Shown: in pieces, positions 2,478 through 47,048 of the stretch
Position numbering within the stretch: position 1 is the first letter of the stretch
Layout: each line of letters opens with the position of its first letter
Source of the DNA: Thermoanaerobacter ethanolicus JW 200
GTDB taxonomy: Bacteria > Bacillota > Thermoanaerobacteria > Thermoanaerobacterales > Thermoanaerobacteraceae
NCBI RefSeq assembly: GCF_003722315.1
Contig: NZ_CP033580.1
Span: 1,549,001 to 1,613,000, forward strand
DNA length: 64,000 nucleotides
Direction: 5' to 3'
Notes under the pieces: model-generated
Told to the model about the DNA's origin: nothing
The model's database searches: none
Seen by the model: the letters and a program-made list of their open reading frames with translations, nothing else
Position numbers and translations under genes: made by a program

Positions 2478-2800
2478 CAGACTGTAGACAAACTCTTTAT
2501 GATATGTTGGCATTTTGCATAAGTGTAGCGACTTGATAGCCCGGCACTCAACCGAAAATGTTAAAAAAGGAGAATAAGAGAAAAGACCAGCCCGTTCAGT
2601 TGAGTGCCGGGAAACTTAGCGAGGCTGAGAGGCGAAAGCGGGGCCGAAGCCAAGGATGGCGGAGGCGGGCACTAAGTCAGGGATGACGAATGTGCCCGGA
2701 ACCCCGCTTGAGCCCGAGGACGAGCGCTAGTTTAGTCTGCGATATCACCGGAGCAAACGATGCAAAATGCCAACAGAAATAGAACTTTGTCAACAAATTG
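2478..2800. mobile_element. 323-bp GC-rich non-autonomous (MITE-like) element with IS1182-type ends
   Basis: There is no credible reading frame. The left end CAGACTGTAGACAAA matches the left end of the IS1182 element at 4143 in 14 of 15 positions. The right end, read inwards as CAATTTGTTGACAAAGT, matches that element's right end in 16 of 17. Imperfect inverted repeats of about 50 bp include a perfect 15-bp pair ending in GCATTTTGCAT-type sequence (around 2507 and 2760). The centre is far richer in G and C than its surroundings and is full of inverted repeats. It is bounded by a 28-bp imperfect direct repeat. Mobilisation in trans by the neighbouring transposase is inferred. Confidence 0.75.
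2536..2735. ncRNA. possible structured RNA cargo inside the 323-bp element
   Basis: The core holds several strong pairings: CCCGGCACTCAAC with GTTGAGTGCCGGG (about 2540 and 2599), GCGGGG with CCCCGC (about 2638 and 2703), and CGGGCAC with GTGCCCG (about 2667 and 2692) enclosing GTCAGGGATGAC. Such dense GC pairing in an AT-rich genome suggests an RNA fold on one strand. I could not assign it to a family with confidence; a HEARO-like RNA is one possibility. Whether it is transcribed is unknown. Confidence 0.35.
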
Positions 2801-4142: not shown

Positions 4143-5708
4143 CAGACTGTTGACAAAATATCGGGAACCCGTTATGATGAGAAGGGTTCCTTGTTATTTT
4201 AGTGGTATAAAGCAAAAGAGGAGAGGAGAAGGAAGATGTTAACAAAGAAACAGGATGCAAGACATCAAATAGAATTTGTAAGCATAGATCAATTAGTACC
4301 AAAAGACCACCTTTTAAGAAAGATAGAAAAAGTCATAGACTTTAGCTTCATATACGATTTAGTAAAGGACAAATATTCCGAAGATCACGGCAGACCAAGT
4401 ATAGATCCAGTAGTATTGATAAAAATACTGTTCATTCAATATCTTTTTGGTATACCGTCGATAAGAAGAACAATAGCAGAAATAAAAACAAACGTTGCAT
4501 ATAGATGGTTTTTAGGGTATGGACTAACAGAAGAAATACCTCATTTTTCAACATTTAGCCAGAACTACATAAGAAGATTCAAAGGGACAGACATATTTGA
4601 GAAAATATTTACGAAGATTTTAGAAGAAGCAATAAGGCATGGGTTAGTAAATGCAGAGGAAGTATTCATAGATTCCACTCACGTAAAAGCAAGTGCCAAT
4701 AAGAAAAAATATACAAAAGAAATAATAGAACAAGAAGCCAAGACTTACCAAGAAAAACTAGAAGAAGAAATAAACAAAGATAGAGAAGCTCATGGAAAAA
4801 AGCCATTAAAGAAAATCAAGACGATAAAGACGAAAGAAGTAAAAGTAAGCAAAACAGACCCAGATAGTGGAATGTTAAACAAAAATGAAAAAGAAAAATG
4901 TTTTGCATATTCCTTTCACACAGCCTGCGATAAAAACGGATTTGTATTAGGAGTAAAAGTTGAAGCAGCGAATGTACACGACAGCGTAATGTTTGAAGAA
5001 GTACTAAAAGAAGTTGAAAATAGGGTAGGAAAACCGAAAGCAATAGCAGTAGATGCAGGATACAAAAATCCGTACATATTAAAGACAATATTTGATAGAG
5101 AAATAATACCAGCAGTGCCATACACAAGACCAAAAACAAAAGACGGTTTTATGAAGAAACATGAGTTTGTGTATGATGAATATTATGACTGTTACATATG
5201 CCCGCAGAATGAAATACTAACATATGTTACAACCAATAGAGAAGGATATAGAGAATACAAATCAAACCCAGAAAAATGTAAAAACTGTCCTTTAAGAGAA
5301 AAGTGTACCCAAAGTAAAGACTACACAAAGAGGATATTCAGGCACATATGGGAAGGATATGTAGAAGAAGCAGAACACCTAAGGCATACACCTTACTGTA
5401 AAGAAGTATATGAGAGAAGGAAAGAGACAATAGAGAGAGTGTTTGCAGATTTAAAGGAGAAGCATGGTTTGCGATGGACAACATTAAGAGGGAAAGAAAA
5501 ATTGTCCATGCAAGCGATGCTTGTTTTTGCTGCCATGAATTTAAAGAAAATGGCCTTATGGTTATGGAGGAAGGGCAAAGGGCCCTTTGACATTTCAAAA
5601 CTTTATCCATTATTTGGAGTTTTAAAGAAAATTTTATCCAGATATATACAGCCCCTGTTTTCGGTACTAAGAAAACAGGGGCTAAAATTTTACTTTGTCA
5701 ACAAACTG
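4143..5708 (+). mobile_element. IS1182-family insertion sequence
   Basis: A 1566-bp element. Its ends, read inwards, are CAGACTGTTGACAAA and CAGTTTGTTGACAAA, imperfect inverted repeats, and it is flanked by a perfect 22-bp palindromic direct repeat. A strong hairpin (GGAACCC with GGGTTCC, about 4164-4190) lies between the left end and the transposase gene and could stop transcription entering from outside. It carries one transposase gene. Confidence 0.85.
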
Positions 5709-5753
5709 GTGCAAATAAAATTATTTGCTTTTTTGTATAAATACTATAGATGA
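4236..5753 (+). CDS. IS1182-family DDE transposase
   Basis: A 505-residue transposase. The N-terminal domain (RHQIEFVSIDQLVPKDHLLR) and the region PSIDPVVLIKILFIQYLFG are typical of the IS1182 family. Catalytic acids are likely in EVFIDSTHVKA, AVDAGYKN and the C-terminal RKETIERVFADLKEKHG. A cysteine cluster near residues 325-355 (CYICPQNE, CKNCPLREKC) could bind zinc. GGAGAGGAGAAGGAAG precedes the ATG. Odd: no stop codon lies inside the element. The frame runs through the right terminal repeat and the flank, and ends at a TGA in the first bases of the next element (from 5744), so the last 15 residues are not its own. Confidence 0.9.
   Translation: MLTKKQDARHQIEFVSIDQLVPKDHLLRKIEKVIDFSFIYDLVKDKYSEDHGRPSIDPVVLIKILFIQYLFGIPSIRRTIAEIKTNVAYRWFLGYGLTEEIPHFSTFSQNYIRRFKGTDIFEKIFTKILEEAIRHGLVNAEEVFIDSTHVKASANKKKYTKEIIEQEAKTYQEKLEEEINKDREAHGKKPLKKIKTIKTKEVKVSKTDPDSGMLNKNEKEKCFAYSFHTACDKNGFVLGVKVEAANVHDSVMFEEVLKEVENRVGKPKAIAVDAGYKNPYILKTIFDREIIPAVPYTRPKTKDGFMKKHEFVYDEYYDCYICPQNEILTYVTTNREGYREYKSNPEKCKNCPLREKCTQSKDYTKRIFRHIWEGYVEEAEHLRHTPYCKEVYERRKETIERVFADLKEKHGLRWTTLRGKEKLSMQAMLVFAAMNLKKMALWLWRKGKGPFDISKLYPLFGVLKKILSRYIQPLFSVLRKQGLKFYFVNKLVQIKLFAFLYKYYR
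5709..5730. repeat. right 22-bp target duplication of the IS1182 element
   Basis: Perfect copy of 4121-4142, followed by six T. The undisturbed locus would have held one hairpin with a T run. Confidence 0.85.
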
Positions 5754-7136
5754 GAAAAATTGATAACAAATATTACCATAAAATAGATGCACTACACCTA
5801 TGCTAACTGTAGTTCTGCTAAAATTTCATCAATAGGTACTTTATTATTAGCTCGCTCATACAGCCATTGAACACGCTGCTTTTGTACTTCTTTGCGTACC
5901 ATTTTTATTCCTTGCCCAAATTTGCAATATTCGTCGCCTGAAGTCGTACAATACAGGTATGTCAATGATATAAGCCATAATAATCTATCTATTGATTTTG
6001 TTGATCGTACTTGATATGTATTTAGTCCAAGATTATTCTTTGTCTGCCTAAAGAATATTTCTATAGGCCATCTTTGACTGTAGTAATTTAGAATAGTCTC
6101 GGTATCTAATTCAGTATCAGTACAGATAAATGCATGTAGAGCATTTTCATTTTTAAAAGCTTTCTCAGGCCAGCACAATACTACTACAGCATTATCTATG
6201 CCATTTAAGGCTCCTTCATAGCGATATACCCAGTAATTAGAACCGTTTACTGTAACGAGGCAAACTTCGTTCTTTTCGATATATTGGGCAAAATCTTTTA
6301 TCTGAATTCTGATGCCTTGTGGATAGATAATCCTGTTAGTTTTTAATGCTCCTATGAGATGGTATCCTCTTTCGAAATGTGCTTCTATTACTTTTTTGTT
6401 TATGTACCATGAATCACATAGTCCATATGCTGGTCCTTTAGGTATTGGAAGCATAGATACCATTTCACATATTCTTTCGATTTTGCTTTTGCCACCTTTT
6501 TCATAGCGCTCAATGCAGTAAGGTAATACCACATTGCCGCAAGATAGCATCATGGTAAGAAGTTGATGTCCCCAAACTTGCTTCCCTTTTAAATGTGATT
6601 GATGGAATCCTGTTGCCTGGATAGTATGTTTAGCCTGTAACGAAGGCTTTGTCTTCTCAGCAATAGTATCATCAAAAATCACAAATATCGGCTTGTTGCT
6701 AGTTTGGGATAATTCAAATATAATGCGAATAACTTCTCGCCTTATAGCTCTCCATGCATACTCTATATTCCAAACACCTTGGCTTAAGAATTTGCCAAAC
6801 GTGGTTCTATGGCAATTAGCAAGGCTTAAATTAACTATATCTGTAACAGTACCACTATAACCTTTTTGAGTGGCAGCAATTATAAATTCTAAAATATGAC
6901 GAATAACAGGTTTAGTAAAATATAATGCAAAATTTAATTTCATTAAGTACTGGATTATTGATGAATTTTCTGTTATTCTTTTATTATGAGACATTTGCTC
7001 CACTCCTATGATTAATATTGTTATAGGGTAACAACATATTAATACCATAGAAGCGAGCATTTGTCTCTATTTTTATTAAATTTTTTCATATAAGTTTGTT
7101 ATGGTAATTTATGTTAGTGAATTTTCTCATCTATAG
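5744..7136 (-). mobile_element. IS4-family insertion sequence, copy 1
   Basis: A 1393-bp element with terminal inverted repeats beginning CTATAGATGAGAAAA at both ends, flanked by TAAATA on each side (6-bp duplication). An apparently identical copy lies at 50314-51706 in the same orientation. It landed 13 bases beyond the right target repeat of the IS1182 element and 52 bases before the radical SAM start codon. Confidence 0.85.
5798..6994 (-). CDS. IS4-family DDE transposase, copy 1
   Basis: A transposase of about 398 residues. The first Asp lies in VIFDDTIAEKTK, the second probably in YGLCDSWY, and the IS4 signature Y-x2-R-x3-E-x6-K is exact in YYSQRWPIEIFFRQTK. The ATG at 6994 (MSHNKR) has GGAGTGGAGCAA before it; the upstream in-frame start would add 22 hydrophobic residues and is less likely. 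The protein is identical to the second copy at 50368-51564. Confidence 0.9.
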   Translation of the reverse strand: MSHNKRITENSSIIQYLMKLNFALYFTKPVIRHILEFIIAATQKGYSGTVTDIVNLSLANCHRTTFGKFLSQGVWNIEYAWRAIRREVIRIIFELSQTSNKPIFVIFDDTIAEKTKPSLQAKHTIQATGFHQSHLKGKQVWGHQLLTMMLSCGNVVLPYCIERYEKGGKSKIERICEMVSMLPIPKGPAYGLCDSWYINKKVIEAHFERGYHLIGALKTNRIIYPQGIRIQIKDFAQYIEKNEVCLVTVNGSNYWVYRYEGALNGIDNAVVVLCWPEKAFKNENALHAFICTDTELDTETILNYYSQRWPIEIFFRQTKNNLGLNTYQVRSTKSIDRLLWLISLTYLYCTTSGDEYCKFGQGIKMVRKEVQKQRVQWLYERANNKVPIDEILAELQLA

Positions 7137-33578: not shown

Positions 33579-33587
33579 TTAGTTAAA

Positions 33588-33693
33588 AATATGCCGAATC
33601 CCCGATAAGGGGTACGGGGGAACTAAATTGGGGTGAATCCACTTTTGTGGTAGGGTGTCCCTAACCCGAACCCGTCAACTAACCTCGGAGGCA
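33588..33693 (+). ncRNA. cyclic di-AMP riboswitch (ydaO/yuaA class)
   Basis: The leader holds the class landmarks in order: GCCGAATCC, GGGGGAACTAAATTGGGG, TGAATCC, AGGGTGTCCCTAACCCGAA, CCGTCAACTAACCTCGGAGGC. The two ends pair (GCC with GGC). The ydaO class binds c-di-AMP and usually turns off genes for cell-wall hydrolases and osmolyte transport. The regulated gene here is a LysM hydrolase, which fits. Confidence 0.9.
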
Positions 33694-33707
33694 AAAGGGG
33701 GAACAAC

Positions 33708-34511
33708 ATGTTTAATATTCGCATCAAGGTCAAACCTCTCATCGCATCAGTTATAGCCGGATTGTTTATTTCCCAATCAGTATTTGCCGCAACTTACACA
33801 GTTAAACCCGGCGATACCTTATGGGGTATAAGTCAAAAATACGGGACTACCTATACTAAGCTGATGTCTTTAAACGGCCTTCAAAATACAATAATATATC
33901 CAGGGCAAGTTTTACAAGTGCCGGGCAGTGATAACACATATGTTGTCCAAAAAGGTGACAGCTTGTACTTAATTGCTTTAAAATACGGTATTACTGTTGA
34001 TATGCTCAAATCTGCAAACGGATACAAAAGCGACATAATATATCCTGGACAAGTCTTTATTATACCCCGGGATACTTCTTCTAATAGGACATATCAGGAT
34101 GTCAGCAGAGGTTCTATTGAAAGGGGTGTAATACCCTACACAAAAGATGAATTTGACCTCCTTGCGCGACTTGTTACCGCGGAAGCAGATGGAGAACCAT
34201 ACCAGGCTAAAGTAGCAGTTGCGGCCGTAGTAATAAACAGAGTTAAAAGTGGTATTTTCCCTAATACTATAAAAGACGTGATATATCAAGTCGATGCATA
34301 CGGAAATTACCAATTTACTCCTGTGTTAAATGGGTGGATAAATAGACCTGCCTCAGCTGACGCTATAAGTGCAGCAAGAGATGCGTTAAGTGGTGTTGAC
34401 CCAACAAACGGAGCCTTGTATTATTTTGACCAAAGTTCTACTAATGCGTGGTTGTGGTCACTTCCTATAGCGGCAAGAATAGGTAATATGGTTTTCTGTT
34501 ACGGCAGGTAA
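33708..34511 (+). CDS. LysM-containing SleB-type cell-wall hydrolase
   Basis: A 267-residue secreted protein. A signal peptide covers about residues 1-28 (VIAGLFISQSVFAA). Two LysM repeats follow (TYTVKPGDTLWGISQKYGTT and TYVVQKGDSLYLIALKYGIT), which bind peptidoglycan. A Hydrolase_2 domain with LLARLVTAEADGEPYQAKVA and LYYFDQSS occupies the C-terminal 130 residues, as in spore cortex-lytic SleB/CwlJ. AAAGGGGGAACAAC precedes the ATG. The c-di-AMP riboswitch in the leader ties it to wall homeostasis. Confidence 0.92.
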   Translation: MFNIRIKVKPLIASVIAGLFISQSVFAATYTVKPGDTLWGISQKYGTTYTKLMSLNGLQNTIIYPGQVLQVPGSDNTYVVQKGDSLYLIALKYGITVDMLKSANGYKSDIIYPGQVFIIPRDTSSNRTYQDVSRGSIERGVIPYTKDEFDLLARLVTAEADGEPYQAKVAVAAVVINRVKSGIFPNTIKDVIYQVDAYGNYQFTPVLNGWINRPASADAISAARDALSGVDPTNGALYYFDQSSTNAWLWSLPIAARIGNMVFCYGR

Positions 34512-45135: not shown

Positions 45136-47048
45136 GTGCGCCCGGCATGGGCGATAGCTAGGCGGTGAAAGTCCGCTGTGGGCTTGGTAGTGGGAACCAC
45201 TAGCCAAGAGCAAGGGTGTCCATCGTGAGGTGGAATCTGAAGGAAGCTTAAGGCAAAATCTCGGTCTGATGAACAAGAACCAGATAAGAGGCTGAATTGG
45301 GGTGGATGAGTTTGCGTAACAAAACGAAGTCCAACACTACCCGAATCCCATACAGTAAATCTGGCAGATATATGAGATGAAAGTTATCGTTCTTACCCGG
45401 GGAGGTCTCAAGGATAAGTCATGGAAGTAAAATCTGAAGTGACAACCCATGCAGTGATGTATGGCTGAACCTTGAGAAGTCAGCAGAGGTCATAGTACTT
45501 ATCTAGACATGAATAGATAAGGAAGGACCGAACGTTAGGAGGTTTTGGAAATCTTATGGACTCGAAAGATATGCAGAGACTGCAGACAACTCAACAAAGA
45601 GGCTATCCGTTGAATAGAGAAATGGAATTTCAAAAGACAACGGAAGTGCATAGTATATCATCGGCGTCGGAAGATGGAAGAAACGAAGTACAAAGATATA
45701 CCAGCAAGATGCTTGAAATGATAGTAGAACGAAGGAACATGGAAGCAGCATACAAGCGCGTTGTTGCAAATAAAGGAAGCCATGGAGTCGATGGGATGGA
45801 AGTAGATGAACTTCTACCGTATCTCAAAGAAAACTGGGCAACCATAAAACAACAACTGCTGGAGGGGAAATACAAACCACAACCAGTGCGAAGAGTAGAA
45901 ATTCCCAAACCAGATGGAGGAGTAAGACTACTAGGAATACCTACAGTACTAGACAGACTAATACAACAAGCAATAGCCCAAATACTAAATAAAGTCTACA
46001 ACCATACATTTTCAGATAGCAGTTATGGATTCAGACCAGGACGCAGTGCAAAAGACGCAATAAAAGCCGCAGAAGCATACATAAATGAAGGATACACGTG
46101 GGTTGTAGATATGGACTTAGAAAAGTTCTTTGACAGAGTAAACCACGACATAATAATGTCCAAACTAGAAAAGCGGATAGGAGATAAAAGGGTACTAAAG
46201 TTAATACGAAGATACCTAGAATCAGGAGTAATGATAAACGGAATCAAAGTATCAACAGAAGAAGGGACACCCCAAGGAGGGCCATTAAGTCCCCTATTAG
46301 CAAACATAATGTTGGACGAACTAGACAAAGAACTTGAGAAACGAGGGCATAAATTCTGCCGATATGCAGATGACTGCAACATATATGTAAAAAGCAGGTC
46401 TGCAGGAAACAGAGTAATGAAGAGCATAAAGAAGTTCATAGAAAGCAAATTAAAACTAAAAGTCAACGAAGCAAAAAGTGCTGTAGATAGACCATGGAGA
46501 AGAAAATTTCTTGGATTTTCATTCTATACAAAAGAAAACGAAGTAAGAATAAGAATCCATGAAAAATCCATCAAAAGGTTTAAGGAAAAAGTAAGAGAAA
46601 TAACCAATCGGAACAAGGGAATAAGCATGGAAAACAGAATAAAAAGACTAAATCAAATAACAACAGGATGGGTCAACTATTTTGGATTAGCAGACGCGAA
46701 AAGCATAATGAAAACCCTTGACGAATGGATAAGGCGAAGACTAAGGGCATGTATATGGAAACAATGGAAGAAGATAAAAACGAAGCATGATAACTTAGTA
46801 AAACTAGGAGTAGAAGAACAAAAAGCCTGGGAATACGCCAATACAAGGAAAGGCTACTGGAGAATATCAAATAGCCCAATCCTAAATAAGACTCTTACAA
46901 ATAAATACTTTGAAAGCATAGGTTATAAGAGTTTATCCCAAAGATATCTAATTGTACACAATTCCTAATGAACCGCCGTATACCGAACGGTACGTACGGT
47001 GGTGTGAGAGGACGCTGAATAAAATAATTATTCAGCTCCTACTCGATT
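45136..47048 (+). mobile_element. group II intron (probably class C) with reverse transcriptase
   Basis: It begins GTGCGCCCGGCATGGG, a group II 5' end. About 420 bases of intron RNA domain I-IV sequence precede the protein gene. A domain V hairpin (ACCGCCGTATACC ... GGTACGTACGGTGGT, about 46971-47004) and a domain VI hairpin (CGCTGAATAAAATAATTATTCAGC) follow it. The 3' end near 47048 is approximate. Its place directly behind a terminator stem is the class C habit. Confidence 0.85.
45556..46968 (+). CDS. ltrA: group II intron-encoded reverse transcriptase/maturase
   Basis: A 470-residue protein. Reverse-transcriptase blocks include RRVEIPKPDGGVRLLGIPT, SSYGFRPGRSAKDAI, GTPQGGPLSPLLANIMLDE and the catalytic RYADDCNIY. 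The maturase X domain follows (ITTGWVNYFGLADAKSI). No HNH endonuclease domain is present, as in class C introns, which use other ways to prime. TAGGAGGTTTTGGAAATCTT precedes the ATG. It appears intact. Confidence 0.93.
   Translation: MDSKDMQRLQTTQQRGYPLNREMEFQKTTEVHSISSASEDGRNEVQRYTSKMLEMIVERRNMEAAYKRVVANKGSHGVDGMEVDELLPYLKENWATIKQQLLEGKYKPQPVRRVEIPKPDGGVRLLGIPTVLDRLIQQAIAQILNKVYNHTFSDSSYGFRPGRSAKDAIKAAEAYINEGYTWVVDMDLEKFFDRVNHDIIMSKLEKRIGDKRVLKLIRRYLESGVMINGIKVSTEEGTPQGGPLSPLLANIMLDELDKELEKRGHKFCRYADDCNIYVKSRSAGNRVMKSIKKFIESKLKLKVNEAKSAVDRPWRRKFLGFSFYTKENEVRIRIHEKSIKRFKEKVREITNRNKGISMENRIKRLNQITTGWVNYFGLADAKSIMKTLDEWIRRRLRACIWKQWKKIKTKHDNLVKLGVEEQKAWEYANTRKGYWRISNSPILNKTLTNKYFESIGYKSLSQRYLIVHNS

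Follow-up and report, generated by a model that had tools for sequence, protein, structure and literature searches.

Comparative sequence analysis identified the block at positions 2478-2800 of the window (the whole 64-kb stretch of DNA that was analysed) as a non-autonomous miniature transposable element of the IS1182 type, with a TwoAYGGAY-type structured RNA as its sole content. Because two hairpin loops of this RNA match the CsrA binding site, the element probably spreads a predicted decoy for CsrA. The explanation that fits best, and in which we have good confidence, is that of a miniature element that depends on a transposase, inserts into terminators and expresses this predicted decoy. 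The element and its flanks are as follows:

2478-2800, plus strand: the whole miniature element (323 bp), with the IS1182-type ends CAGACTGTAGACAAACT ... ACTTTGTCAACAAATTG
2450-2477, unstranded: the left target copy, which is the whole terminator palindrome AAATAAGGCACACTTAAGTGCCTTATTT (28 bp)
2801-2828, unstranded: the right terminator copy (28 bp), with three mismatches to the left copy

These mismatches between the flanking terminator copies indicate that the insertion is old. Since no ORF of at least 60 aa was found inside 2478-2800, a coding role for the element was rejected. The initial annotation had described a mobile element with a structured RNA as its only content and with IS1182-type ends, and this description was borne out by covariation, target-site duplications and an empty site. 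In T. thermocopriae (G009), the site that is orthologous to that of the window has no element and a single intact terminator. The orthologous site was also empty in two other genomes (G003 and G008), while G007 and G010 have the element at the same place, minus a 72-bp hairpin. The 346-bp region gave 47 BLAST matches across its own genome. A clear target duplication, with a median of 24 bp and a maximum of 40, was found in 70 of the 87 elements that have both ends; mispaired flanks gave 2/500 in this analysis. A hairpin is formed by 65 of these 70 duplications, and 57 of the 70 fold at -7 kcal/mol or better compared to 9 of 1232 control segments. Just two of 82 elements were found to lie between divergent genes. 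The element has the properties of a MITE, i.e., interspersed multiple copies, a target duplication, empty sites in relatives and terminal inverted repeats in common with autonomous IS1182, with no transposase gene. Taken together, the copies and their insertion sites showed the mobility, the ends and the terminator targeting of the 323-bp element.

A full IS1182 that encodes a DDE transposase is located 1.3 kb from the 323-bp element:

4143-5708, plus strand: full-length IS1182-family element, whose ends match those of the miniature element; its transposase is NF033551 (E 1.1e-146)
4236-5753, plus strand: the IS1182 transposase ORF, which extends beyond the element's right end (5708), so that the flank supplies its stop codon
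4121-4142 and again 5709-5730, unstranded: the IS1182 target duplication, the 22-bp palindrome GTGCAAATAAAATTATTTGCTT
5798-7060, minus strand: a second transposase-like ORF (420 aa), which adjoins the IS1182 element

The ends of the miniature elements (CAGACTGTAGACAAA on the left and TTTGTCAACAAACTG on the right) match those of the full IS1182, and the end motif occurs only three times in the 64-kb window, namely at the 2478-2800 element and at both IS1182 ends. The full element at 4143-5708 is likely the source of transposase for the miniature one. The distinction that had been drawn between these IS1182-type ends and those of IS200/IS605 proved correct, as the transposase is a DDE enzyme of the IS1182 family and palindromic targets are duplicated. 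Additionally, several GGA repeats (AGAGGAGAGGAGAAGGAAG) precede the start of the IS1182 transposase, which may be a CsrA-sensitive leader.

Within the element, the following parts were distinguished:

2505-2520, plus strand: 5' arm of the P1 closing stem (TGTTGGCATTTTGCAT), with a 16-bp perfect pairing to 2760-2775
2760-2775, plus strand: 3' arm of the P1 closing stem (ATGCAAAATGCCAACA), which pairs with 2505-2520
2540-2611, plus strand: optional 72-nt hairpin (CCCGGCACTCAAC...GTTGAGTGCCGGG) outside the conserved RNA, which stands in place of the AGCAGTAACT of the orthologous copies
2612-2733, plus strand: conserved RNA core, a predicted three-way junction of the divergent TwoAYGGAY (RF01731) type; core and closing stem make up the conserved RNA
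2638-2643/2702-2707, plus strand: stem GCGGGG/CCCCGC, read from the sequence
2649-2660, plus strand: hairpin A, GCC-AAGGAU-GGC, with the CsrA consensus loop CANGGANG
2666-2672/2692-2698, plus strand: stem CGGGCAC/GTGCCCG, read from the sequence
2676-2687, plus strand: hairpin B, GUC-AGGGAU-GAC, with the CsrA consensus loop CANGGANG

The GC content of the RNA core was 0.62 and that of the window 0.34, and windows of the same size were equally GC-rich in 1 of 1048 cases; the GC-rich block in AT-rich surroundings that had been noted at first is real, and so are the P1, GCGGGG/CCCCGC and CGGGCAC/GTGCCCG stems. The folding z-score was -6.25 for the plus strand and -5.01 for the minus strand, and none of 200 shuffles reached the same stability. 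The RNA folds as a three-way junction of outer stems with tandem G-A, a stem GCRGGG/CCCYGC and hairpins A and B. Among the copies of the own genome, 95.4% of the pair cells were paired and the compensatory cells outnumbered those of all 500 shuffles. In 64 distinct copies from four genera, 95.5% of the pair cells were paired and changes on both sides were found at 20 of the 35 pairs (168 cells, compared to a mean of 31 in the shuffles; 0/500); these values come from alignment A2, which was fitted to the covariance model and thereby favours it, and the plain MAFFT alignment A1 agrees. When the structure was slid by one to three columns, at most 41% of these pair cells were paired. The P1 arms also covary between subfamilies (AGATAT/ATATCT versus GGCAT/ATGCC). 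The comparison of homologues that was proposed as a check thus left the folded RNA standing, and covariation of this extent identifies the cargo as a real structured RNA. In one subfamily (L003, L018, L020 and L026), ACCTGACGTAGG takes the place of GATTGTGCCCGG as the 3' half of this hairpin B.

It could be argued that the structure matters as DNA, i.e., as a cruciform, an insulator or a set of protein-binding palindromes. The long perfect palindromes, the palindromic insertion targets and an optional hairpin that inverts its loop would fit with this, but the G-U wobble replacements, the tandem G-A mismatches and the GGA pattern on one strand are features of RNA, and a multibranched junction that covaries goes beyond a simple palindrome. 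We therefore consider a purely DNA-level role to be very unlikely. The arms of the optional hairpin (17 nt, 94%) lie at 2540-2556/2595-2611. The 13-bp CCCGGCACTCAAC stem that was initially counted among the stems of the RNA does exist, but it belongs to this insert, and because it is missing in most copies and in the orthologous insertion of G007 and G010, it was rejected as a part of the conserved RNA. In L007, L008 and L009, the loop of the 70-72-bp hairpin is oriented oppositely to that in L018, L020 and L026, and the identity of 98.6% appears only when one of them is inverted. This optional hairpin resembles a nested element that is invertible or replaces stem-loops.

The best match between the copies of the own genome and Rfam was to TwoAYGGAY (RF01731), with 40.1 bits and an E of 0.003, while the gathering cut-off of this family is 43 bits. 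The Rfam search that had been recommended was therefore productive for other copies, but the copy in the window was unmatched up to an E of 10 and did not reach the cut-off. Copies from the same order exceed it (59.9 bits), among them copies of G035 and G036, and copies from other families pass as well. The covariance model R1, which was built of the core from 15 own-genome copies and contains only Thermoanaerobacter sequences, recovered the G035 and G036 loci that pass the RF01731 cut-off at E values of 1e-8 to 1e-14. Since R1 finds loci that pass in Rfam, the RNA of the window type is homologous to TwoAYGGAY and forms a divergent branch of it. Moreover, two hairpins with ANGGAY loops are present in the shared junction and are near invariant in the alignment. 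By this homology, the cargo RNA is a divergent TwoAYGGAY RNA, with the window copy itself below the curated score. TwoAYGGAY was discovered in 2010 (PMC2864571), and a motif analysis from 2014 proposed it as a CsrA binder (PMC4333381). In the open-licence literature, we found no experimental test of its function since 2010 and no description of it as the cargo of a mobile element.

The first guess had been a HEARO-like or OMEGA-like RNA, and a catalytic intron, or the guide RNA of a transposon that carries a nuclease, would likewise account for a mobile element with a structured RNA as cargo. Nevertheless, Rfam matched neither HEARO nor introns at the site, there is no partner of the TnpB, IscB or IsrB type, the ends and the DDE transposase are those of IS1182 rather than IS200/IS605, and palindromic targets are duplicated. 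Because the RNA matches TwoAYGGAY, this guess was refuted by the evidence on both family and carrier, and we assign it practically no probability. A riboswitch or intron identity of the cargo was also rejected, as Rfam gave no support for it at 2478-2800. Elsewhere in the window, a c-di-AMP riboswitch (RF00379, 95.7 bits) lies at 33582-33708 and a group II intron with three Rfam domain matches at 45219-47047.

Analysis with R1 revealed 35 copies in the own genome. Each of the ten Thermoanaerobacter genomes that were searched contains 13-92 copies, six of nine Thermoanaerobacterium genomes have exactly one, and two genomes from another family within this order have 5 and 43. The genomes covered include T. 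wiegelii Rt8.B1, T. thermocopriae and Thermoanaerobacterium butyriciformans. No R1 copies were found in a further family, of which 13 genomes were searched. Genomes of one related family have CsrA but lack such an RNA, which speaks against the decoy explanation. Across the phylum, TwoAYGGAY was present in 40 of 398 genomes and at least two copies were found in 28 of these 40, with six candidates scored per genome. Some members from other Firmicutes that pass the Rfam threshold lie in the same kind of IS1182-type element; the copies of G153 and G144 again have CAGACTGTAGACAAA-type ends, and duplicated terminators are clear in G153. In G035 and G036, the RNA is flanked by different ends and short duplications, as read by eye, and in the own genome L003 and L005 have different transposon-like ends (GTGTAAAA...TTTTACAC). 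IS256 was considered as the source of these ends and rejected, as G035 and G036 have no PF00872 transposase and the IS256 ends of the own genome gave no clear match. The single Thermoanaerobacterium copy (L070-L075) is located between the genes of an S41-type protease and a glycerate kinase, which were named by eye from the translations in the species read, and faces either direction depending on the species. Judged by this constant locus, it is a fixed, non-spreading form without IS1182-type ends. As the same RNA occurs with IS1182-type ends, with other ends and at a fixed single locus, these data suggest one RNA that is borne by several vehicles. In G275 (L206-L211), very long inverted repeats close the TwoAYGGAY copies, which lack IS1182 ends; several of these copies adjoin the repeated motif GTCACGGGGACGGTTCT.

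Both apical hairpins show the CsrA consensus 5'-CANGGANG-3', in which N varies and the flanking letters are nearly invariant. In 50 distinct Thermoanaerobacter rows, the conservation of C-A-N-G-G-A was 1.00-0.96-0.40-0.98-0.98-1.00 for the loop of hairpin A and 0.98-1.00-0.51-1.00-1.00-1.00 for that of hairpin B. Two CANGGANG sites, i.e., at least two hairpin loops as in a decoy, were kept in 89 of 117 distinct copies, although the GGA motif of a hairpin loop is short. Such loops are high-affinity CsrA sites (PMC4894983). Every carrier genome that was searched has one csrA. In the own genome, the single csrA, whose product matches TIGR00202, is found in the order fliW-csrA-hag (fliW and hag were named by eye from the translations). 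The hag leader contains the hairpin GGC-AAGGAU-GCC and a second site, CAAGGAGG, at the ribosome binding site, and this hairpin was conserved in all of the Thermoanaerobacter and Thermoanaerobacterium leaders read. The flagellin leader is a classic CsrA target; in Bacillus subtilis, the hag leader is reportedly repressed by CsrA, according to work by Yakhnin from 2007 that is cited in PMC4894983, and we take the csrA-hag leader arrangement of the own genome to be the same. The 2.9-Mb genome contains 16 occurrences of the pattern GGCANGGATGCC, 15 of them in cargo copies and the remaining one in the flagellin leader next to csrA, whereas by our own estimate from the base composition chance would give about 0.2 matches; the reversed pattern has no occurrence genome-wide. 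Thus, 15 other copies of the own genome have hairpin B with GGCANGGATGCC, as does the flagellin leader.

An RNA that serves the transposon itself, through its stability, recognition of the transposase or target, or protection from transcription, would make the GGA loops a by-product of the fold. In at least two copies examined in G008 (L076 and L085), both GGA loops were lost, while the ends and the target duplications are correct and csrA is present; as these copies transposed without the loops, CsrA binding is not required for mobility. This agrees with such a role, as does the fact that the P1 stem and the end arms adjoin the transposon ends. Against it, the GGA is near invariant while the adjoining N is free, which is the exact CsrA consensus, the hairpin is identical to that of the hag leader, and the same fold occurs with other ends in G035/G036 and L003/L005 and without such ends at the single-copy Thermoanaerobacterium locus. 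We consider this possibility to be unlikely, but of some weight.

In the decoy explanation that we prefer, IS1182 transposase would act in trans, recognise the CAGACTGTNGACAAA ends and direct the insertion to an intrinsic terminator, at its stem-loop. The whole terminator hairpin is duplicated on insertion, and hence the flanking genes keep their terminator and the element is bounded by one on each side. Transcription of the element would then either start at a promoter-like sequence within the left arm or result from read-through, and it would stop at the downstream terminator copy, so that the duplicated terminator would both shield the neighbours and supply the 3' end of the RNA. The RNA would fold into the junction and display two CANGGANG loops, CsrA would bind them and would be titrated from targets such as the hag leader, which bears the same hairpin. 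We infer that the transposase acts in trans, that the element is transcribed, and that its RNA binds and titrates CsrA. A promoter-like site that points into the RNA was found in the left arm of 70 of 82 elements, compared to 12% in shuffles, and in the right arm of two; since the element copies are related, these sites count as one observation rather than seventy. The commonest was TAGACA-17-TATTTT, and the site in the window copy was no better than chance.

The RNA might instead act in cis and control read-through at the end of the invaded gene. Rfam types TwoAYGGAY as Cis-reg, and the elements are nearly always flanked by two terminator copies. Nevertheless, the elements are inserted in either direction relative to the upstream gene (27 vs 18, a bias that is not significant), the downstream gene is inconsistent and the single-copy Thermoanaerobacterium locus flips its direction between species, which makes control in cis quite improbable. 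Direction-dependent read-through from the upstream gene was rejected on the same counts.

More tentatively, and with rather more doubt than belief, it may be proposed that TwoAYGGAY is generally a mobile, transposon-borne CsrA decoy. Such bacterial "SINE-like" elements would mimic the CsrA site of the flagellin leader and insert harmlessly in terminators, and their copy number would set the dose of free CsrA and possibly also free the transposase message from CsrA, which would promote their own spread. Our analysis places TwoAYGGAY as the sole cargo of a high-copy, terminator-seeking miniature transposon and links it to a likely CsrA target of the same genomes, the flagellin leader hairpin. 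In Thermoanaerobacter, a genus that includes industrial thermophiles, this system makes it possible to test directly whether copy number enables a mobile element to rewire a global regulator that acts post-transcriptionally.

The CsrB, CsrC, RsmX, RsmY and RsmZ RNAs also have GGA in the apical loops of multiple hairpins with the consensus CANGGANG, and the cargo RNA would titrate CsrA as they do. However, there is no known homology, the cargo RNA has two sites rather than many, and it is mobile and present in tens of copies per genome. The known RNAs of this kind are gammaproteobacterial, and at the time of that report no CsrA decoy RNA had been identified outside the Gammaproteobacteria (PMC4333381). 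A functional parallel is provided by the rrA, rrB and rrF RNAs of E. coli, which are reported to be located between dual terminators and to interact with CsrA in vitro (PMC8144298); these are fixed parts of rRNA operons, are not mobile and are unrelated in sequence to the cargo RNA. With TwoAYGGAY RF01731, the cargo RNA shares the three-way junction, the two hairpins with ANGGAY loops and the G-A-rich outer stem, although the Thermoanaerobacter copies reach at most about 40 bits, slightly below the gathering score of 43, and are the cargo of a mobile element, whereas Rfam lists the family as Cis-reg. As for the IS1182 family, which includes IS1272 and palindrome-targeting ISs, the ends of the miniature element match those of the full IS1182 in the window and an inverted repeat or stem-loop is used as the target, as in IS1272 (PMC5678879). 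Unlike that family, the miniature element has no transposase gene, and while IS1272 replaces its target hairpin (PMC5678879), the miniature element duplicates the whole terminator hairpin.
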